From: a virus | Length of the DNA: 22,794 nucleotides | Virus record (IMG/VR): IMGVR_UViG_3300025138_000393 | Span: 1 to 22,794 of that record | Strand: one strand, 5' to 3' | Part shown: one piece after another, positions 1,331-8,743 of the stretch | How the letters are laid out: every line of letters starts with the position of its first letter | Position numbering within the stretch: the first letter of the stretch is position 1 | The notes under the pieces: generated by a model | What the model saw: only the letters and a program-made list of their open reading frames with translations | What the model was told of the DNA's origin: nothing | Databases searched by the model: none | Made by a program: the position numbers and the translations under genes

Positions 1331-1554
1331 TGACACAAGAAGAATTTAATAAGCATTATAAGGAGTTTTTAATGAATATTGGTGCCTTGGATATGAGGAG
1401 TATAATGAAGCTAAAAGGAGTGGATGATAAGGAGTTTGATGAAAAGATAGGAAAAGCAGTAGGCAATGTGGAGAAGGAGCTTGTAAAAAGTGGGAGTAGA
1501 GGAGATGAAATGGATAGTCCAGTGACGAATGATAATAAGAATATAACGACGTGA
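1330..1554 (+). CDS. small acidic hypothetical protein, 74 aa
   Basis: The ATG overlaps the stop of the preceding gene by one base (TAATG). Residues 1-50 are predicted helical and mixed-charge, with a heptad-like spacing of hydrophobic residues (FNKHYKEFLMNIG, then a lysine/glutamate-rich segment). Residues 51-74 are polar and probably disordered. No family is recognised. A hairpin with a T-tract follows 12 bases after the stop, so this is likely the last gene of the ligase operon. An antisense ORF across the same stretch is low-complexity and not credible. Confidence 0.7.
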   Translation: MTQEEFNKHYKEFLMNIGALDMRSIMKLKGVDDKEFDEKIGKAVGNVEKELVKSGSRGDEMDSPVTNDNKNITT

Positions 1555-1565
1555 ATGACGGGTGG

Positions 1566-1588
1566 ACCTTTAACTCGAAGGTTTTTTT
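1566..1588 (+). terminator. intrinsic terminator after the ligase operon
   Basis: ACCTT (1566-1570) and AAGGT (1578-1582) form a 5-bp stem with a 7-base loop, followed directly by a run of T to 1588. It lies 12 bases past the stop at 1554, as expected for the end of an operon. The stem is short, so termination may be partial. Confidence 0.6.
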
Positions 1589-1647
1589 CGACATACCTTA
1601 ATACCCGAATCCGTATATCCTTAATACGTGGTCTTAAATTAATTTAT

Positions 1648-1667
1648 ATGCGGTTTAATGCGGTTTA
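1648..1667 (+). repeat. 10-bp perfect tandem repeat ATGCGGTTTA x2
   Basis: Two adjacent exact copies of ATGCGGTTTA. The ATGCG core recurs at 1715, 1736, 1759, 2328 and 2571, and as its complement CGCAT twice with the same 10-base spacing at 5588 and 5598. It may be a binding site for a DNA-binding protein; no function can be assigned from the sequence. Confidence 0.6.
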
Positions 1668-1779
1668 TTTATGTCATTGTGGTGATATATGTTGTGGGTG
1701 AGGTAATGTGTTAAATGCGTTGATAGTGCTGGATAATGCGAGGTGTGGCAGCAGGGTTATGCGCCAAATGTGTCAAGCA

Positions 1780-1808
1780 TTGATTCACGTGTGGAATACC
1801 TATATAAA
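1780..1808 (+). promoter_or_regulatory. sigma70-like promoter TTGATT-N17-TATAAA
   Basis: TTGATT (1780-1785) and TATAAA (1803-1808) are separated by exactly 17 bases. No ORF of size follows. The first structure downstream is the GGGTTA-TGTAT-TAACCC hairpin at 1857-1873, followed by ATTTATT. A short untranslated RNA of about 60 bases is possible. Hexamer matches of this kind can arise by chance in AT-rich DNA. Confidence 0.35.
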
Positions 1809-1856
1809 AATATTACAATATATGACAAAACGGTGATGTGTTATGTGGGATAAAAC

Positions 1857-1873
1857 GGGTTATGTATTAACCC
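1857..1873 (+). other. perfect 6-bp hairpin
   Basis: GGGTTA (1857-1862), loop TGTAT, TAACCC (1868-1873). It is followed by ATTTATT rather than a pure T-run, so at best a weak terminator. It might instead be an RNA structural element of a transcript starting near 1815. Confidence 0.4.
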
Positions 1874-1980
1874 ATTTATTGCGCGCCCCCAACCCTTCCA
1901 TAACGACGAAGTATATACTCATGAACCGCGCGCTATTCACGCCTTTTCATGGATATTCACAAACACATATGTAAAAATAT

Positions 1981-2009
1981 TTGGATACCGCAAGGAAAGG
2001 TCGTATATT
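1981..2009 (+). promoter_or_regulatory. TTGGATACC-type promoter, copy 1
   Basis: TTGGATACC (1981-1989), 11 bases, then TCGTATATTAC (2001-2011). Read as a promoter it is TTGGAT-N17-TATATT, with the extra conserved ACC after the -35 and TCG before the -10. The same arrangement is found at 2096 and 3824 and, less exactly, at 5710 and 6571. The next full-length gene downstream is at 2144, behind a second copy. Confidence 0.65.
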
Positions 2010-2095
2010 ACGGTTGTAATGAGGTTCACCGTCACCACATGAGAACATACTGGCCATATGTCTCCAAAACAGGTTTAAAATAATCGCGAGAGTGG

Positions 2096-2124
2096 TTGGA
2101 TACCGTACTCCTTGTTCGTATATT
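2096..2124 (+). promoter_or_regulatory. TTGGATACC-type promoter, copy 2
   Basis: TTGGATACC (2096-2104), 11 bases, TCGTATATTCAC (2116-2127), 115 bases after copy 1. The predicted start point is about 2131, just ahead of the ATG at 2144. Reading the TTG of the -35 box as a start codon for the following gene is an artefact. Confidence 0.7.
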
Positions 2125-2143
2125 CACATCGAATATTAAAATA

Positions 2144-2377
2144 ATGGTTATGAATGTAGAAAAGTTAAATGAATATATCGCCCTAGAGGCAAGTAAGTTA
2201 GATCGTTCAATTATTGCAACACCTTCATCGATGGGGGCATTAGAAGCGTTTGCGTATGGCAATCATGGTTCTAATGATATTGTTCTGATGCATATGGCTG
2301 TTAACTTAGGATATAAGATGGCTCTTAATGCGGTGGAGCATAAAGTTAGGCAATTAAATGTGGATGTGGTGGGGTAA
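2144..2377 (+). CDS. small hypothetical protein, 77 aa
   Basis: Begins MVMNVEKLNEY and reads as a mostly helical soluble protein with an alanine/methionine-rich middle (SMGALEAFAYGNHG, then VLMHMAVNLGYKMALNA). The frame extends upstream to a TTG at 2096, but that TTG is the -35 box of a conserved promoter, so the start is at ATG 2144 or ATG 2150 (75 aa). It stands alone within the unusual island, with its own promoter 20 bases upstream. No family is recognised. The balanced amino-acid composition suggests a real gene, and its promoter suggests independent, probably early, expression. Confidence 0.6.
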   Translation: MVMNVEKLNEYIALEASKLDRSIIATPSSMGALEAFAYGNHGSNDIVLMHMAVNLGYKMALNAVEHKVRQLNVDVVG

Positions 2378-2381
2378 TGTG

Positions 2382-2546
2382 ATGGTGAGTCCAGCGCAGC
2401 ATATTATGCTGTTGGTTGTAATCCCGTGTGACGTACTTTATATTATGGTGGAGGGGTTGCCGTTCGTACCTTATGTGTATTCAGCATATTATGCTGTCGC
2501 ACCTTATATGTACCCTATTATTAATAACATAGGGGGTTGTACTTAA
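2382..2546 (+). CDS. possible small membrane protein, 54 aa (doubtful)
   Basis: An ORF starting at ATG 2382, five bases after the preceding stop (an in-frame ATG at 2358 would overlap that gene). The peptide is very hydrophobic, with a run from about residue 8 to 45 rich in V, I, L, Y and P, which could span the membrane. Against it, codon use differs from confirmed genes, and the two copies of a 15-bp palindrome inside it are read in different frames, so that sequence is probably kept for a DNA or RNA reason rather than a protein one. Confidence 0.25.
   Translation: MVSPAQHIMLLVVIPCDVLYIMVEGLPFVPYVYSAYYAVAPYMYPIINNIGGCT
2397..2496. repeat. two copies of a 15-bp palindrome, 85 bp apart
   Basis: CAGCATATTATGCTG occurs at 2397-2411 and again, identically, at 2482-2496. 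Each is a perfect inverted repeat of 7 bp around one central base. Palindromes of this type are typical of operators bound by dimeric regulators, or can form small hairpins; which applies is not known. Confidence 0.7.
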
Positions 2547-2588
2547 TATATTATATAGCATTATATGTTAATGCGTGGCATTTGGCTG

Positions 2589-2600
2589 GCGTACGTACGC
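2589..2600. other. 12-bp perfect palindrome GCGTACGTACGC
   Basis: A perfect 12-bp palindrome with alternating purine/pyrimidine character, in the non-coding right half of the island. It may be a protein-binding or restriction-type site. Nothing adjacent identifies its role. Confidence 0.4.
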
Positions 2601-2757
2601 GCATATATGTAAATAATACCCATGTATTGCTGCCGTCCATCGACGCGTGTATGTGGTAAAAAAGGATTTAGACGGATTATTTGATCGAGTACACCTCTAA
2701 CCCATCGATTGTATATACTTATATCTATTTATATATTAAAACCACATATGTATAAAC

Positions 2758-2940
2758 ATGCCCCACAAAGTATTCATAAGACACACATATATCTACCAAT
2801 GTGAAAAATGCCATGAAGAATGGACAATAAACGAAGCAGAAGATATTGAAAAACCCACATGCCCTCATTGCGGGAGAAAAACTGACGTTAAGTACATAAT
2901 AGAAGATCAACGACGTAATCACCACCGTAAACATATTTGA
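2758..2940 (+). CDS. small zinc-ribbon protein, 60 aa
   Basis: Two CxxC knuckles are visible: YQCEKCHEEW (cysteines 15 and 18) and PTCPHCGRKTD (cysteines 35 and 38), spaced as in a zinc ribbon of the FmdB/rubredoxin-like type. The remainder is short and basic at the C terminus (RRNHHRKHI), compatible with nucleic-acid binding. The gene stands alone, just after the island, with a TATTTATA motif and a GTATATAC palindrome upstream, and no Shine-Dalgarno sequence. Zinc binding is a confident inference from the motif; the partner or target is unknown. Confidence 0.8.
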   Translation: MPHKVFIRHTYIYQCEKCHEEWTINEAEDIEKPTCPHCGRKTDVKYIIEDQRRNHHRKHI

Positions 2941-3018
2941 AGACCCATTTCGGTTCAGGGTTTAAAAATCCACAGATCCGCAACTCTTTAGAAGAAAAAA
3001 TCTTTTATATCGACAAAA

Positions 3019-3040
3019 GTATATACTTGCAATATTTATC
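3019..3040 (+). promoter_or_regulatory. late-promoter-like element ahead of the structural-like gene
   Basis: A GTATATAC palindrome (3019-3026) followed by AATATTTATCAT (TATTTATC at 3033-3040), eight bases before the ATG at 3048. TATTTATM recurs ahead of several genes (5276, 5929, 8760, 11734) and is a candidate for the element used by the phage's own gp55-like sigma factor. If it is a -10 box the message would have almost no leader; alternatively it helps translation start. Confidence 0.4.
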
Positions 3041-3047
3041 ATAAAAA

Positions 3048-3731
3048 ATGGCAACATACACAGCAGCTCAGACCAAAGGTAGTGGATCATTAGGAGAAGT
3101 ACTAACAGGTGCTAAAACATTCACAATCACTAACCATACAGGTTCAACAGGCACATACCCAATTGGATATCTTACATTAGAAGGAAATCCTATTGCGAAT
3201 AAAAACTTATCTACATTAAACCCACAAGTAGGAACTTTAATTCCGGGTGGGATACTCCCATTTTCAAGTCCTAATATTACTACAACAGTCCCAGCACTAA
3301 ACAGTACTTTTCTTTTTGATGTAGTTGGAGATACTCAAGGAAGTGGAAGTGTTATATCATTAACATCTGTTAATGGGGTGATTAAGGAAGGAATTGTTGT
3401 TGAGACAGGGAGTAATTTTATTAGTGGGGATGTTATTACTATATCACAAAATGACATACAGGCCGCAGGATTTACCAATGCTAATCGATCCGCTATATTG
3501 GACATATTCCCAGATAAAATAGATGGAAATTATATAGGTACTAATATGACAGGATCATTTGGAACTTACGCTAATGGTATAGAATCAGGATCTTTAAACC
3601 AAACTAACAGAAGATTTTCCATATCTATATACGGTAGTGGTGGTTCTTTTATATTCACACCATCTGCTACAATAGCAGTTAATTCCTATTACATAAAAGG
3701 TGTAGGTTCTTTTGATTTAACGATATCATGA
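3048..3731 (+). CDS. putative virion structural protein, 227 aa
   Basis: A Gly/Ser/Thr/Asn-rich, beta-strand-type protein with few charged residues and no cysteine. It starts MATYTAAQTKGSGSLG and contains repeated short strands separated by G-S-G or N-T-G turns, ending in a glycine-rich segment near residues 195-200. This is the composition of phage decoration, fibre or head-tail proteins rather than enzymes, and it resembles the composition of the structural proteins encoded from 9121 onward. No specific family is recognised. It sits apart from the main structural cluster but has its own TATTTATC motif upstream. The stop overlaps a tiny ORF (ATGA at 3728). Confidence 0.75.
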   Translation: MATYTAAQTKGSGSLGEVLTGAKTFTITNHTGSTGTYPIGYLTLEGNPIANKNLSTLNPQVGTLIPGGILPFSSPNITTTVPALNSTFLFDVVGDTQGSGSVISLTSVNGVIKEGIVVETGSNFISGDVITISQNDIQAAGFTNANRSAILDIFPDKIDGNYIGTNMTGSFGTYANGIESGSLNQTNRRFSISIYGSGGSFIFTPSATIAVNSYYIKGVGSFDLTIS

Positions 3732-3805
3732 TCAATATTTTAATTATTAGTAGTTCTATTATTGTTGTAGTAATAGTAATAGAAGAAGTATTCAAAATAT
3801 ATTAA
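3728..3805 (+). CDS. possible 25-aa membrane peptide
   Basis: A short ORF whose ATG overlaps the preceding stop (ATGA). Residues 1-18 are almost all Ile, Val, Leu and Ser, followed by EEVFKIY, so it would form a single membrane helix with a short charged tail. The overlap arrangement and the continuous hydrophobic stretch support it, but at this size chance is a real possibility. It ends 19 bases before the next promoter. Confidence 0.4.
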   Translation: MINILIISSSIIVVVIVIEEVFKIY

Positions 3806-3823
3806 AGACTTCCGGTAAAGTAC

Positions 3824-3852
3824 TTGGATACCCGAAGAATTGTTCGTATATT
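3824..3852 (+). promoter_or_regulatory. TTGGATACC-type promoter, copy 3
   Basis: TTGGATACC (3824-3832), 11 bases, TCGTATATTTAC (3844-3855); as a promoter, TTGGAT-N17-TATATT. It is the only promoter-like element between the preceding ORFs and the DUF932 gene at 3901, giving a leader of about 40 bases. Together with the terminator at 4717 it defines a single-gene transcription unit. Confidence 0.75.
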
Positions 3853-3900
3853 TACGGGGTAAATAAGGCAATAATGCCGGTTAATTAAAAAATAAGAGTT

Positions 3901-4707
3901 ATGTTAAATTTAGAAAATGTAGAGTTTAAAAGTAAAAATGAATTAAAAGTATTATGTCCTGTTATATTCTCAGATAAATCCTCAGGTGAAGTATCAAAAC
4001 ATTACACACACATTCCAACATCAAAAGTCATAGATGATATGGCTACATTAGGTTGGGGAGTAGTAGATGCTAAATCAGTTAAAGCTAGAAAAGAAAATAC
4101 TAAGGGTTACCAAAAACATCTAGTGATATTTAGAAATAATGATGTTGTTATTAATGGAGATGATGGTGATACTGTTTTCCCACAAGTATTACTTACAAAT
4201 AGCCATGATGGAAAAAATGCATTTACCTTTACAGCGGGTTTATTTAGAATGATTTGTGAAAATGGATTAGTTATATCAACTTCAACATTTGAAGATGTAA
4301 AAATGAGACACATGGGTTATTCATTCGAAGAGCTTCAAGTTAAAATCAAAGAAATGGTTGAGAAACTACCATTAACAGTTGAATCAATGAATAAAATGAA
4401 AGAAACAGAAATTGGTGAAAAACAAGCTGTTGAGTTTGCTAAAAAAGCTCTTAATACTAGATTCACAGATAAAGAGTTAAAAAGAATTAAAATTAATTTC
4501 GAAGAATTACTTACACCTACTAGAACAGAAGATGAAGGTAAAGATCTTTGGAGTGTATTTAATGTAGTACAAGAAAAAATCATTAGTGGTGATTTCGAAT
4601 ACACAACTGCTAACAAAGTTAGAAAAGCGAGAGAAATTAAAAATTTCAAGCAAGATCAAAAAATTAATAAAGATTTATTTGAATTAGCTTTAGAATACGC
4701 TCAATAA
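3901..4707 (+). CDS. DUF932 family protein, 268 aa
   Basis: Matches the DUF932 (phage/plasmid-like, TIGR03299-type) pattern: an N-terminal region with a threonine/histidine HYTHIPTSK segment, a central core VLLTNSHDGKNAFTF followed by GLFRMICENGLVIS (about residues 97-126), and the C-terminal LWSVFNVVQEKIISG signature around 215-230. The middle (about 140-190) is charged and probably coiled. The molecular function of the family is not established; it is common on phages and plasmids. The gene is monocistronic, between promoter copy 3 and a strong terminator, which suggests strong independent expression, probably before the late phase. The start at ATG 3901 has only a weak AAGAG upstream. Confidence 0.88.
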   Translation: MLNLENVEFKSKNELKVLCPVIFSDKSSGEVSKHYTHIPTSKVIDDMATLGWGVVDAKSVKARKENTKGYQKHLVIFRNNDVVINGDDGDTVFPQVLLTNSHDGKNAFTFTAGLFRMICENGLVISTSTFEDVKMRHMGYSFEELQVKIKEMVEKLPLTVESMNKMKETEIGEKQAVEFAKKALNTRFTDKELKRIKINFEELLTPTRTEDEGKDLWSVFNVVQEKIISGDFEYTTANKVRKAREIKNFKQDQKINKDLFELALEYAQ

Positions 4708-4716
4708 TATTAATAT

Positions 4717-4737
4717 ACCCCCGCAAGGGGGTTTTTT
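4717..4737 (+). terminator. strong intrinsic terminator
   Basis: CCCCC (4718-4722), loop GCAA (a GNRA-type tetraloop), GGGGG (4727-4731), then TTTTTT (4732-4737); the flanking A4717 can pair with the first T. It lies 10 bases past the DUF932 stop. This is the clearest terminator in the window. Confidence 0.93.
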
Positions 4738-4748
4738 ACAACTCACTC

Positions 4749-5210
4749 ATGCCTATTACTAAAATTTCCTTAAACGAAGCATCTAATTATATCAGCCAAA
4801 AAGAAGATAATTTAAATTCCCCCCTTAGATACTATACACTTGAGTTAGATGATGATGGATGGGATAAAATAACATATTACACCTCCAGGAGGAAAGACAT
4901 TTATAAAAATCGTGGTAAAGGAGACCAATGGGTATATGTTTTATCAAACCCATCTATGCCTAACTTTTTAAAAATTGGATATACTAAAAACGAGCCTGAT
5001 ATAAGGGCTAAACAAGTTGGATCCTCTACGGGGGTTGCATTACCCTTTGACTTAGAATGGGCATTTCAATGCTTTAATGGTGAACAACTTGAAAAAGAAG
5101 TTCATAAAGAGCTTGAGTCCTATAGAGTAAGCAATAATAGGGAATTTTTTGATATCCCATTAAATGAAGCAATTGAAGCTATTCAAATCCTCGGTAAAAG
5201 ATATGTATAG
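4749..5210 (+). CDS. GIY-YIG superfamily protein, T5orf172/MUG113 type, 153 aa
   Basis: The C-terminal two thirds match the T5orf172 domain, a branch of the GIY-YIG nuclease fold. WVYVLSNP (61-68) and FLKIGYTKN (73-81) stand in for the two signature strands. ARG86 follows in DIRAKQV, then ELEKEVHKELE-type helix residues (around 114-123) and NREFFDI (130-136). The first 55 residues are a separate, unrecognised helical segment. Related proteins are often annotated as nucleases or DNA-binding phage proteins, but activity of this branch is not generally demonstrated. The gene starts 11 bases after a strong terminator with no clear promoter, so it depends on read-through or an unrecognised start signal. 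Confidence 0.82.
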   Translation: MPITKISLNEASNYISQKEDNLNSPLRYYTLELDDDGWDKITYYTSRRKDIYKNRGKGDQWVYVLSNPSMPNFLKIGYTKNEPDIRAKQVGSSTGVALPFDLEWAFQCFNGEQLEKEVHKELESYRVSNNREFFDIPLNEAIEAIQILGKRYV

Positions 5211-5213
5211 GTA

Positions 5214-5230
5214 GTATATACGTATTTATA
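5214..5230 (+). promoter_or_regulatory. late-promoter-like element with GTATATAC palindrome
   Basis: GTATATAC (5214-5221) followed by TATTTATA (5223-5230), just past the stop at 5210 and 57 bases before the ATG at 5287. A second ATATTTAT lies at 5275-5282, almost touching that ATG. The upstream copy would leave room for a leader; the second would not. Confidence 0.4.
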
Positions 5231-5286
5231 AATTAAAATCTGTTAAGAGACTTAAAAGAGAAGTTACTTTTCATATATTTATCCCT

Positions 5287-5571
5287 ATGCATGTAAAAAA
5301 ATTAATACTTAATAGGAAAAATAAACCTTGGGGTAATTTCCTGAAAACTTTAGTTAGAGATAGAAAACTATCCCCTTTAGAGAGACTTTCTACAAGAATA
5401 GGATATATGGGAGTTGGATTTTTGATAGCAGCCCAATGGACTGTTAATCCTTATTTATATGTTTTAGGATTTTTATGTGTTTTAATTCAAACAACAGTAC
5501 GCAAACAGTGGAATTTGGTAGTTCTACAACTTAATGGATTACTTGCATGGTGTATGCATCTTTTATGCTAG
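5287..5571 (+). CDS. small integral membrane protein, 94 aa
   Basis: A basic N terminus (residues 1-35, rich in Lys/Arg with KPWGNFLKTLVRDRKL) is followed by hydrophobic segments at about 39-50, 55-70 and 77-94, giving two or three membrane helices. By the positive-inside rule the N terminus would be cytoplasmic. No lysis or transport family is recognised. It has no Shine-Dalgarno sequence; an ATATTTAT motif lies just before the start. The gene is isolated, with a non-coding stretch of nearly 190 bases after it. Confidence 0.75.
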   Translation: MHVKKLILNRKNKPWGNFLKTLVRDRKLSPLERLSTRIGYMGVGFLIAAQWTVNPYLYVLGFLCVLIQTTVRKQWNLVVLQLNGLLAWCMHLLC

Positions 5572-5573
5572 TA

Positions 5574-5628
5574 TCGCGCAATAGTCGCGCATAATTTCGC
5601 ATACAATACAATTTACACATACATCGCA
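5574..5628. repeat. short irregular repeats TCGCGCA/TCGCA
   Basis: TCGCGCA at 5574 and 5585, TCGCA at 5597 and 5624, in otherwise AT-only DNA directly after the stop at 5571. The pair of CGCAT words at 5588 and 5598 is the complement of the ATGCG-N5-ATGCG pair at 1648-1662. Possible protein-binding region; non-coding. Confidence 0.45.
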
Positions 5629-5637
5629 CACATTTAA

Positions 5638-5680
5638 ATTACCTATGTTTATATCACATTTGGTAATATTTTAATTTTTT
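5638..5680 (+). terminator. possible weak terminator
   Basis: ATTACC (5638-5643) can pair with GGTAAT (5662-5667) across an 18-base loop, followed by a T-rich stretch to 5680. The large loop makes it weak, but its place just ahead of a promoter at 5710 fits a transcription-unit boundary. Confidence 0.3.
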
Positions 5681-5709
5681 GAGGAAAATAGTATATTATT
5701 CTAAATTCC

Positions 5710-5738
5710 TTGGATACCCCAAATATTATTATTATTTT
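5710..5738 (+). promoter_or_regulatory. TTGGATACC-type promoter, copy 4 (divergent -10)
   Basis: TTGGATACC (5710-5718) is exact; the expected -10 position holds TATTTT (5733-5738), again with a 17-base spacer, but the TCG before it is TAT here. The gene start is ATG 5758, not the TTG of the -35 box, although the frame is open through it. Confidence 0.55.
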
Positions 5739-5757
5739 TATACAAATCTATAAAATT

Positions 5758-5928
5758 ATGAAAAATCAAAAAGAAGATTTAATAAATAACTTGATATTTT
5801 TAACATCAAGGAAAGATGATTTATGGTTATACCATCCAAATAATATGGAAGGGTTAAACCTTATTGCTGAATATGAAAGAGTTAGTAAACAAATTGATGA
5901 ACTTAAAGAAAAAATAGAAAAATTTTGA
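5758..5928 (+). CDS. small helical protein, 56 aa
   Basis: Begins MKNQKEDLINNLIFL and ends in a lysine/glutamate coiled-coil-like helix (KQIDELKEKIEKF). No catalytic motif or family is recognised. An in-frame upstream extension to TTG 5710 would add an Ile-rich leader made from promoter DNA and is rejected. It lies first behind promoter copy 4, followed 27 bases later by another small gene. It may be one of the many small early host-interaction proteins of T4-like phages, but nothing specific supports that. Confidence 0.65.
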   Translation: MKNQKEDLINNLIFLTSRKDDLWLYHPNNMEGLNLIAEYERVSKQIDELKEKIEKF

Positions 5929-5936
5929 TATTTATC
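5929..5936 (+). promoter_or_regulatory. TATTTATC motif
   Basis: GATATTTATCACC lies immediately after the stop at 5928 and 19 bases before the ATG at 5956. It is the same TATTTATM word found ahead of structural genes. Could be a late-type -10 element or chance in AT-rich DNA. Confidence 0.3.
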
Positions 5937-5955
5937 ACCACAAAATAATTTTATT

Positions 5956-6138
5956 ATGGGGAAATATAATGAAGATACTTTTTATGAAATCTACCAAAAA
6001 GTAGAAAATAAAGGAATTAGGAATAGATTTGATGATCAATTAAAAAAAATGTCATTACAAGAAAAACATAAACATAAAACCCCTGTAGAAAGGTGGGAAT
6101 ATGCATTTATGAAAGTAACCCAATCAATATCTAAATAG
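5956..6138 (+). CDS. small basic protein, 60 aa
   Basis: Sequence MGKYNEDTFYEIY, then a lysine-rich middle (EKHKHKTPVERWEYAF) and a short helical end. It is strongly basic and likely all-helical. No family is recognised; nucleic-acid or protein binding is possible from charge only. Its stop (TAG 6136-6138) is closely followed by the next gene, so the two are probably co-transcribed. Confidence 0.68.
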   Translation: MGKYNEDTFYEIYQKVENKGIRNRFDDQLKKMSLQEKHKHKTPVERWEYAFMKVTQSISK

Positions 6139-6149
6139 TGGGTAAGAAC

Positions 6150-6569
6150 ATGGATCATATATTTTCATTATTCTCCTCTAATGAAGAAATTAGTGGGGGG
6201 AATGATAAGTCATATATAGATTTTAAAGAATCTCCTGCATATTTTGTTGGAATGTACAAAAAATTAGTCTTGAATAATTTAAACTTTAATAAAAAAATAG
6301 TAAAAATGTTTAAAGATGCTAATTCTGATTTAGATGCTAATGAAATGTCCGAAGCTGGAGAATGGGTAACTTACAATAGGGCCTGGCATTACATCCAAAA
6401 AATAAACCTTAGTAATGAAGATCATATTTCTTCACTAAAAAAACATAATGATGAATATTTCCAGACCACAATAAAGCTGGGTATAAACTTCTTTGAGGAG
6501 CAAGAACAATATGAAAGATGCGCTCTATTAAAGAAAATCGAAGATATTTGTGAACATTTTGAAAAATAA
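6150..6569 (+). CDS. hypothetical protein with C-terminal UVR-like motif, 139 aa
   Basis: The C-terminal 26 residues (FFEEQEQYERCALLKKIEDI and onward, about 114-139) fit the UVR motif pattern E-x-Q-x-x-Y-E-x-A-x-x-L-R-x-x-I, the helical hairpin through which UvrB and UvrC interact. Here Cys replaces one Ala and Lys replaces Arg. The rest is soluble, alpha-helical and not recognised. Start choice: a GTG at 6138 overlaps the preceding stop by one base and would add four residues (143 aa); ATG 6150 is preferred. The UVR-like motif also occurs in other bacterial and phage proteins as a small interaction module, so a direct role in repair should not be assumed. Confidence 0.75.
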   Translation: MDHIFSLFSSNEEISGGNDKSYIDFKESPAYFVGMYKKLVLNNLNFNKKIVKMFKDANSDLDANEMSEAGEWVTYNRAWHYIQKINLSNEDHISSLKKHNDEYFQTTIKLGINFFEEQEQYERCALLKKIEDICEHFEK

Positions 6570-6570
6570 T

Positions 6571-6599
6571 TTGGAGTCGCCCTCTTTTATTCGTATGTT
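6571..6599 (+). promoter_or_regulatory. TTGGATACC-type promoter, copy 5 (variant)
   Basis: TTGGAGTCG (6571-6579), 11 bases, TCGTATGTT (6591-6599): TTGGAG-N17-TATGTT. The TTGGA, the TCG before the -10 and both spacings are kept although the rest has drifted. It begins two bases after the stop at 6569 and leads, through a leader of about 90 bases, into the gene cluster ending with the late sigma factor. Confidence 0.55.
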
Positions 6600-6694
6600 G
6601 GGGATACGGGCTTAAGGGAACAAGATAATTAGAGAAAATAAGGTTACTTAGGTATTAAGGGGTTAAGGAACACCCAATATAAACAACATAAGAT

Positions 6695-6880
6695 ATGAAT
6701 AAAGATTTAATTGATAGAAGGATATCCCAAATGGAAGGGAAAATTTCAAACTTAAAATATAATTTAAGTGGACAATCATCAAGGGATGAATTTAAAAAAA
6801 ATATAAATGATCTTGAAGAATTATTAGAAGATTTAAAATCTTTAATTGATAGAACCACTAACCCTCTTAGAAACGGATAA
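6695..6880 (+). CDS. small coiled-coil protein, 61 aa
   Basis: Nearly the whole protein is predicted helical with heptad-like leucine spacing (RRISQMEGKISNLKYNL, then NDLEELLEDLKSLIDR). No family is recognised. The next start follows after three bases, so it is the first gene of a cluster running through an HD hydrolase, a membrane protein and the gp55-like sigma factor. An opposing ORF on the other strand is a shadow. Confidence 0.7.
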   Translation: MNKDLIDRRISQMEGKISNLKYNLSGQSSRDEFKKNINDLEELLEDLKSLIDRTTNPLRNG

Positions 6881-6883
6881 TAT

Positions 6884-7660
6884 ATGAAATTAACAGCAGA
6901 ACAAATTCAAGATAATTTTGAAAAGTTATATAATACTATTAATAAATACATATCAGACCCTAGAAGGGAGAAATTAATAGAATTTTACACTAAATTCGCA
7001 GACAGAATAGTAATGATGCCTGCTTCCCATAAAAAAGAATACCATAATGCATTTCCAGGTGGGTATGTGGATCACGTTAATAGAGTTGTTGATGCTGCTT
7101 TAGAGATAAATAAAATCTGGAAAAAATTTGGAGCTGAACAAAATTATACAATTGAAGAATTAGTATTTTCAGCCATTAATCATGATTTAGGTAAAATGGG
7201 TGATAGTGAGCATGAATCTTATATCCCCCAGACTGATAAATGGAGAAAAGATAAATTAGGTGAGGATTATATGCATAATAAACAAATTGCATTTGCATCA
7301 GTTCCAGATAGAGGTTTATTTTTACTCCAAGAACATGATATTAAGTACACATTTAATGAAATGATTGCAATCCAAACACATGATGGTTTATATGATCCCG
7401 CAAATGATAAATATTTGAAATCATATATGCCAGAAACTAAACCAAGAACATCACTTCCATTTATTCTTCACCAAGCAGATATGATGTCAGCAAGAGTAGA
7501 ATTTGAAAAAGAATGGTTACCAAAATTTAAAGGAGAGAGTGGGTTGGATAAGCCAAAAGATAATTTTACATTGAACGGGAATAAGAAACAAGCTATTAAG
7601 AATAAAGCTTTAGGTTCAATAAAGAGTGAAGGTTTAAAAAATATTTTAGATAAATTATGA
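6884..7660 (+). CDS. HD-domain phosphohydrolase, 258 aa
   Basis: An HD-superfamily metal-dependent phosphohydrolase. Candidate metal ligands are in order: His64 in GGYVDHVNRV, His100-Asp101 in INHDLGK, His151, His166 in QTHDG, and Asp199 in LHQADMM. The segment PGGYVDHV ahead of the first histidine resembles HD proteins found in other marine T4-like phages. The natural substrate is unknown; nucleotides are typical for the superfamily, and a role in adjusting host nucleotide pools is inference. It overlaps the following gene (ATGA at 7657-7660). Confidence 0.9.
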   Translation: MKLTAEQIQDNFEKLYNTINKYISDPRREKLIEFYTKFADRIVMMPASHKKEYHNAFPGGYVDHVNRVVDAALEINKIWKKFGAEQNYTIEELVFSAINHDLGKMGDSEHESYIPQTDKWRKDKLGEDYMHNKQIAFASVPDRGLFLLQEHDIKYTFNEMIAIQTHDGLYDPANDKYLKSYMPETKPRTSLPFILHQADMMSARVEFEKEWLPKFKGESGLDKPKDNFTLNGNKKQAIKNKALGSIKSEGLKNILDKL

Positions 7661-7941
7661 TCGGTTATATAGTTACAATATGTGTTTTATCAGTATTAGT
7701 TATAATATTAGGTTTTACTACTTTTAATTTACTAAGAAAAAATGAAAAAGCAGAAGATATTGTGGTTGGATACTTAGATTATTTAGACAAAATCTCTAGG
7801 GTGATTGAAATTTCAGATGAAAAAGTTAAAAAAATAGATATTAAAGGCTCGTTTAAAAGTGATGATGAAATAGGTTTCTTTTTTGAACAAATCAAAAATA
7901 TACAAGAAGTTTTAAATGACTTCAAGTTAAAAAAGTATTAA
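7657..7941 (+). CDS. membrane-anchored helical protein, 94 aa
   Basis: A single N-terminal transmembrane helix (about residues 3-25, IGYIVTICVLSVLVIILGF) is followed by NLLRKNEK, a basic stop-transfer segment. An acidic/lysine-rich cytoplasmic helical domain follows, with a GSFKSDDEIGFFFEQIKNI core. Topology is probably N-out, C-in. Function is unknown. It is translationally coupled to the HD hydrolase and ends four bases before the sigma-factor gene, so all three are expected to be made together. Confidence 0.78.
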   Translation: MIGYIVTICVLSVLVIILGFTTFNLLRKNEKAEDIVVGYLDYLDKISRVIEISDEKVKKIDIKGSFKSDDEIGFFFEQIKNIQEVLNDFKLKKY

Positions 7942-7945
7942 TCTT

Positions 7946-8743
7946 ATGGATTCCATTATTAGAAAGCATTCTGCTAAAAAACAGAAAAAAAACTACTTTA
8001 CAAAAGAAACAGAACAGGCTATAGTTAGATATAATAACGAAAAAAATTTTGAAACACGTAGTAATATATATCAAAAGGAAATACATTATCCTTTTTTTAA
8101 ACTTACCCAAAATATAATTCATACATTTAAATTTTATCATACAGAAGTTGAAAATTTAGAAGATTTACAACATGAGATTATGATATTTTTACTTGATAAA
8201 ATTCATCTATTTAACCCAGAAAATGGAGCTAAGGCCTATTCTTATTTTGGTACTATTGTAAAACGATGGTTAATTGTTTATACAACTAAAAATTATAACA
8301 AAAAATTAAGTAATATACCTATTTCAGATCTAAATAATTATTCTAATCTAGATATGTCATCTCCTTCATTTGTAAATTCAGCTAAAATGGATTTAGGTGT
8401 TGAAAAAATAATAGAAGGAGAAACAAAAGATGAATTAGATTTTCAAGGATATAAATCATCAGATAAATTATCTTTATTTGTGGATCAGTATGTAGAATTT
8501 GTGACAGATAATATTTACGATATCTTTAAAAAACCTTATGATGCACAAATAGCAGATGCCATATTAGAGTTATTTAGAAAAAGAGATAATATAGACATAT
8601 TTAATAAAAAAGCACTATACATTTATATTAGGGAGCAAGTTGATGTAAAAACTCCAAAAATAACAAAAATAGCTAACGTTTTATACAAAATATTTAAAGA
8701 AAAATATTTATTTTATCTAGAAACCGGTGCCTTCCCGTCTTAA
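7946..8743 (+). CDS. late-transcription RNA polymerase sigma factor, T4 gp55-like
   Basis: Directs host RNA polymerase to phage late promoters. The N-terminal half matches gp55-type sigma region 2: an initial basic segment, YFTKETEQAIVRYNNE (about 17-32), then LEDLQHEIMIFLLDKI (71-86), FNPENGAKAYSYFGTIVKRW (89-108). These are the conserved region 2.2-2.3 polymerase-binding and DNA-melting segments. The C-terminal 150 residues are helical and lysine-rich and longer than T4 gp55 (265 aa here against about 185). It is last in its operon, and the late structural module begins right after it behind a TATTTATA motif. It may itself be expressed from the variant TTGGA promoter at 6571. Confidence 0.87.
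   Translation: MDSIIRKHSAKKQKKNYFTKETEQAIVRYNNEKNFETRSNIYQKEIHYPFFKLTQNIIHTFKFYHTEVENLEDLQHEIMIFLLDKIHLFNPENGAKAYSYFGTIVKRWLIVYTTKNYNKKLSNIPISDLNNYSNLDMSSPSFVNSAKMDLGVEKIIEGETKDELDFQGYKSSDKLSLFVDQYVEFVTDNIYDIFKKPYDAQIADAILELFRKRDNIDIFNKKALYIYIREQVDVKTPKITKIANVLYKIFKEKYLFYLETGAFPS

Follow-up and report, generated by a model that had tools for sequence, protein, structure and literature searches.

A probable two-part promoter class for non-structural genes in T4-like relatives of a Flavobacterium phage

Short repeats in a stretch of viral DNA of 22,794 nucleotides (IMG/VR record IMGVR_UViG_3300025138_000393, positions 1 to 22,794; here called the window) very probably represent a real two-part promoter class for the non-structural genes of a large T4-like phage group that has a Flavobacterium phage among its relatives. 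In the window, the element has the form TTGGATACC-N11-TCGTATATT; the general core of the class is TTG[G/C]-N15-TTCGTATATTTA. Judged from sequence, this pre-late class is likely to be read by the host RNA polymerase carrying the primary sigma factor of Bacteroidota. To our knowledge, promoters of Bacteroidota phages have hardly been described, and an account of this class was not found in the open literature searched. With its 22.8 kb, the window is a fragment from IMG/VR, and scans of relatives stand in for the remainder of its genome.

Copies of the element in the window and in relatives

An earlier note on this DNA had described three exact copies with an 11-base spacer. These copies are present at 1981, 2096 and 3824 (Table 1), where 0.03 matches are expected by chance; four matches were reached in none of 100 shuffled sequences. 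The two variants described there are likewise present at their stated positions. That at 6571 is weaker, yet it is kept in six relatives, and three of these contain the exact TCGTATATT; the geometry of the variant at 5710 is retained in one relative (L328, 86% identical). The counterpart of the 2096 site in the relative L249 is TTGGCTACC, with the right half retained. Because of the scores, computed with a matrix for which four relatives, but not the window, served as training set, and because of the conservation in relatives, the sites at 1981, 2096 and 3824 are graded as strong, 6571 as moderate and 5710 as tentative. Open reading frames (ORFs) begin approximately 20–100 bp 3' of the sites at 2096, 3824, 5710 and 6571. 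The statement that all copies lie in gaps before non-structural genes agrees with these four sites and with the bias of the whole class towards non-structural genes described below. It does not apply to the site at 1981, which is approximately 85 bp away from the next promoter and has no evident or conventional ORF directly 3' of it.

The gene order of the window (DUF932, T5orf172, HD phosphohydrolase, sigma-like gene, baseplate) is also that of Flavobacterium phage vB_FspM_immuto_2-6A (immuto), an isolate with the host Flavobacterium sp. LMO8, a genome of 160 kb and T4-like gp20 and gp23. Going by these relatives, the host of the window phage most likely belongs to the Bacteroidota. The earlier note had proposed a promoter-like family with fixed geometry and a matrix scan for further intergenic copies; the family indeed recurs in relatives and in IMG/VR, strongly confined to the coding strand. 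With each genome scored by a matrix built from the others, the hits with a score >12, among which related sequences are not independent, numbered 19 forward and 1 reverse in immuto, 26 and 0 in the genome G002, 52 and 0 in G003, and 16 and 2 in G010; reversed-sequence controls yielded 0. Strand-biased copies were not found in the relatives LR756508, LR756511 and RM378. The cleanest test is provided by the orthologues of the DUF932 gene, because these were picked by protein similarity and the motif was not used. In 55 of 65 distinct phages, the promoter is located 5' of this gene, 32–74 bp before its start; on the opposite strand it was found in 2. Furthermore, a scan of IMG/VR with the exact pattern matched at least 119 stretches. 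Among the 124 exact copies in the matches listed, 82 are not located in a same-strand ORF; for 72 of them, an ORF start is at most 100 bp away. The other 42 fall within same-strand ORFs and were rejected as promoters; almost all of them belong to a single conserved coding sequence (..LLDTxxIxRIL..). Some promoter copies are located 5' of tRNA arrays, which favours an action at the level of transcription.

Table 1. Predicted promoters, late-type boxes and associated genes in the window
Feature	Positions	Strand	Remarks
Promoter TTGGATACC-N11-TCGTATATT	1981..2009	+	exact; score 24.3; predicted +1 ~2016; identical in L249
Promoter TTGGATACC-N11-TCGTATATT	2096..2124	+	exact; score 22.2; predicted +1 ~2131; 5' of ORF 2144/2150-2377
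Late-type box AATATTTATC	3031..3040	+	before ORF 3048, function unknown
Promoter TTGGATACC-N11-TCGTATATT	3824..3852	+	exact; score 41.2, strongest; predicted +1 ~3859; 5' of DUF932 gene
DUF932-domain protein gene	3901..4707	+	Pfam PF06067, E 1e-32; 40% identical to immuto protein; 3' of 3824 promoter
Variant TTGGATACC...TTATTATTTTTA	5710..5738	+	3 mismatches; score 8.0; 5' of ORF 5758-5928; tentative, weak
Variant TTGGAGTCG-N11-TCGTATGTT	6571..6599	+	score 11.2; predicted +1 ~6606; 5' of gene run 6695-8743
Sigma-factor-like gene (region 2 fold)	7946..8743	+	last gene of run 6695-8743; 3' of 6571 promoter
Late-type box CATATTTATAA	8758..8768	+	directly 3' of sigma-like gene, 22 bp before structural block
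Late-type box AATATTTATAA	11732..11742	+	before ORF 11748

Several regions next to promoter copies have features of their own. Positions 1555–2140 of the window, which include the sites at 1981 and 2096, contain no convincing ORFs. Positions 1771–2128 are 95.5% identical to L249, compared to 88% for the adjoining DUF932 stretch, and may therefore hold a non-coding RNA or have another function at the DNA level. A short RNA or leader 3' of the 1981 site is a candidate; folding of the RNA 3' of this site was no better than that of shuffled sequences, and Rfam found nothing in the window at the gathering threshold and nothing up to E 1 within 1500–3100. A long leader (6605–6700) follows the 6571 promoter; it contains a GGGG..CCC hairpin (z -1.7) and is kept in six relatives. 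In L037, and also in L054 and L065, a GC-rich sequence beginning with GGGGGTGACTTGGACTTGACG is located 3' of the promoter and recalls the 5' end of tmRNA; a tmRNA was not found in L037 with ARAGORN or Rfam. GC-rich sequences without obvious ORF or Rfam match also follow the promoter in L058, L067 and L116, and are candidate phage non-coding RNAs. Chryseobacterium potabilaquae (L228, L231, L233, L240) has four copies of a repeat in which an exact TTGGATACC-N11-TCGTATATT comes after a terminator-like hairpin; the repeat is possibly the end of a mobile element. The start context AAAGGTTATG or AAAAGTTATG is common to many loci 3' of the promoter; the likely hosts of these phages do not use Shine-Dalgarno sequences.

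Architecture of the element and relation to host promoters

In 480 non-redundant sites, TTGG occupies positions -35 to -32, TTCG positions -16 to -13, and TATATTTA positions -12 to -5. The TTG element is found at a fixed position with its G at -33 (T 94%, T 89%, G 97%; the matrix used to select the sites covers these positions). In the -7 element, each base of TATATT is conserved to 96–100% and the next T to 65%; seeding of the matrix on TCGTATATT inflates the conservation of this half, a bias that is lessened by the DUF932 footprint and the cross-genome training. Position -5 is an A in 86% and a G in 3% of the sites. The block that follows TTG differs between clades: it belongs to TTGGATACC or TTGGCTCCC near the window, to TTGGAGAAG in G002, and is TAGG or TTGG in G003 and TTGC in immuto. 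For this reason, the bases ACC are not supported as a general recognition element, as had been suggested in the earlier note, and the nine-base left half is conserved within the window clade only; general are TTG at -35 to -33 and TTCGTATATTTA. As read from these frequencies, the anomaly that would bear on a modified polymerase or an extra factor is the A at -5 together with the TTCG block, rather than ACC. A mini-hairpin TTGG..CC in the left half was rejected, because the corresponding column pairs of the 480 sites had no excess of pairing. For a possible inverted repeat TATTTAC..GTAAATA at the start, only one column pair (11,15) stands out, and a general operator is unsupported.

The interpretation of the two halves as -35 and -10 hexamers of a sigma70 promoter is not supported: the spacing matches that of the primary sigma factor of Bacteroidota (sigmaABfr), whose promoters consist of -33 TTTG and -7 TAnnTTTG (PMC6847099, PMC7366714). 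If the T of TATATTTA is set at -12, the G of TTG falls exactly at -33, as in sigmaABfr promoters. The phage class has in common with them the TTG with G at -33, the 20-bp gap, and TAnnTTT (TATATTT) at -12 to -6. It differs in the A instead of G at -5, in the extra TTCG at -16 to -13, and in the clade-specific bases after TTG.

A more distant relative, Microcystis phage Mel-JY01 (PP395634.1; L243, L429), shares the sigma-like gene and contains TTGCATA-N16-TAnnTTTG, with 16 forward and 3 reverse copies. This is the full host consensus with the same 20-bp gap, and the A-5 form may therefore have been derived from a host-type promoter. The recorded host of Mel-JY01 is cyanobacterial and its promoters are of the Bacteroidota type; the host label merits a check. 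The phage also encodes ribosomal protein S21.

A late-type box and a sigma-like gene

Structural genes of immuto, of Mel-JY01 and of the window (8758, 11732) have a second box, ATATTTATAA or ATATTTAT, on their 5' side. In immuto, whose structural blocks were assigned by us from its annotation, the ratio of non-structural to structural genes is 24:2 for the early-type and 5:11 for the late-type element (P 6e-5). At 48 sigma-gene loci, 60 early-type elements are located upstream of the gene and 0 downstream, compared to 30 and 107 late-type elements (P 3e-28), some of the latter being chance matches because the late-type pattern is short. Boxes of the form ATATTTAT[AC] are found just 5' of ORFs at 3031, 5274, 5927, 8758 and 11732 of the window. 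Immuto and Mel-JY01 have a similar box in front of genes for tail, portal and terminase proteins.

A match to Sigma70_r2 was obtained for all 24 homologues of the sigma-like protein (the window ORF and 23 aligned relatives), with weak scores; the window protein is below the Pfam cut-off. Its AlphaFold model (mean pLDDT, the predicted local distance difference test, 67.5) matches sigma region 2 with 2.5–3 Å over approximately 100 residues, and nearly all listed structural matches are sigma factors. Helical models often give middling structural scores. Besides region 2, the protein has a C-terminal helical domain. Homology to gp55 of T4 was not detected by profile match, with a shallow alignment. 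The protein is a candidate late specificity factor. Mel-JY01 has the late box and this gene in common with the other phages, whereas its bipartite class differs; it is therefore plausible to assume that the sigma-like protein is paired with the late class.

Conservation of sequence, strand, position and geometry, the separation by gene class and the presence of the sigma-like gene are observed; promoter activity, timing, the readers of each class and the start site are what we infer in the following cascade, the simplest one. Host core RNA polymerase with a primary sigma factor of the sigmaABfr type would read the early-type promoters and start transcription approximately 7 bases 3' of TATATT. 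The absent G at -5 would be compensated for by a nearly perfect TTG at -33, together with the constant gap of 20 bp and the TTCG block. The early-type promoters would drive scattered small genes, DUF932, ssb, genes of DNA metabolism, tRNA arrays and the run that contains the sigma-like gene. Once made, the sigma-like protein would turn on the structural genes from the late class ATATTTATAA. These findings provide genome-wide predicted starts, a transcription map of two classes and a candidate late sigma factor for a T4-like group with an isolate (immuto).

Alternative explanations and comparison with known promoters

Several observations weigh against recognition by the unmodified host polymerase. 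The A at -5 contrasts with the G that is nearly invariant at this position in F. johnsoniae promoters (PMC6847099). Upstream regions of a Chryseobacterium genome are enriched in TAHHTTTG (67 forward, 31 reverse, 22 shuffled), and TAHHTTTA is not enriched in them (71 forward, 73 reverse, 68 shuffled); TCGTATATT was not found there. The phage form of the motif had no excess in six bacterial genomes, which led us to reject it as a host promoter. Intergenic regions of the phages show no enrichment of canonical TAHHTTTG (in immuto 0 forward versus 4.2 shuffled), and these phages therefore lack the form preferred by the host sigma factor. The same findings speak for a phage-altered holoenzyme, in which a sigma factor, a coactivator or a sigma-appropriating protein of the phage would confer a preference for TTCG and A-5 on the polymerase reading these promoters, making them a middle-type class. 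The A-5 and TTCG are clade-wide and absent from host promoters, and the phages encode a sigma-like protein that combines region 2 with a C-terminal helical domain. However, unmodified polymerase must read something first, and no other early class was seen. Moreover, Mel-JY01 has the same sigma-like gene, yet its bipartite class contains the canonical G at -5, and it shares the late box, which links the sigma-like gene with the late class. We thus regard an altered holoenzyme as possible but doubtful. Only tentatively can it be proposed that the phage redirects the Bacteroidota RNA polymerase from TAnnTTTG to TTCGTATATTTA by means of a product of its own, which may be the sigma-like protein or an injected factor. 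In that case, the phage would avoid host-type promoters, and its early genes would be set apart from host transcription. Base -5 and the TTCG block mark the departure of the phage from the host promoter rule and make polymerase takeover in Bacteroidota directly testable. Immuto (L203, approximately 18607–37015) also contains the 7-deazaguanine genes QueC, QueD, QueE, FolE, DpdA and QueF. This gene set suggests that guanines of the phage DNA are modified; the reading of G positions in the promoter could be affected by such a modification.

A role of the element in promoter-terminator cassettes, units that end the upstream gene, start the next one and spread by recombination, would come on top of its promoter function. 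They would resemble the promoter early stem-loops (PeSLs) of T4-type phages, as these are outlined through work cited in PMC4503421. In immuto, G002 and G003, 24–26% of the sites have a hairpin z below -1.5, compared to 10–15% of control windows; in the clearest cases the stem spans TTG and a T-run leads into TTCG. Near-repeat upstream sequences occur within one genome. With a terminator-like hairpin in approximately 25% of the sites of these three relatives, some of the conservation may serve termination, which is a further point against a purely promoter-based explanation. Still, the hairpin is missing from the majority of sites, G010 stays at the control level, and the TTGG..CC stem lacks covariation in the 480 sites; cassettes are rather unlikely. 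The overlap of some phage sites with terminator hairpins is reminiscent of PeSLs, to the extent outlined in that source; the difference is that only about one quarter of the sites are concerned. A signal for RNA processing or translation in read-through mRNA is most improbable, despite conserved downstream leaders and the start context AAAGGTTATG common to many copies: the element is found 5' of tRNA arrays and in some cases after terminators, the -33/-7 spacing is fixed, and sequence rather than base pairing is conserved.

Among known systems, the E. coli-type sigma70 promoter is TTGACA-N17-TATAAT; the phage class has TTGG with clade-specific bases and TATATT, and its closest isolate infects Flavobacterium. 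Like T4 early promoters, it occurs in numerous short intergenic copies before small early genes of a T4-like genome; sequence and host sigma factor are different. In T4 middle promoters, a MotA box near -30 replaces the -35 element and is combined with a -10 element. The phage class is likewise pre-late, belongs to T4-like phages and contains an upstream block at a fixed position, but it has the -33 TTG element. The position frequencies of the 480 sites reveal no conspicuous MotA box, with no search made for homologues of MotA or AsiA. T4 late promoters consist of a -10 element TATAAATA without -35 element before structural genes and depend on the phage sigma factor gp55. The early-type class differs from them in having a -33 element and in avoiding structural genes. 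In contrast, the second class ATATTTATAA before structural genes would act similarly to T4 late promoters, and a phage sigma-like gene is present as well.

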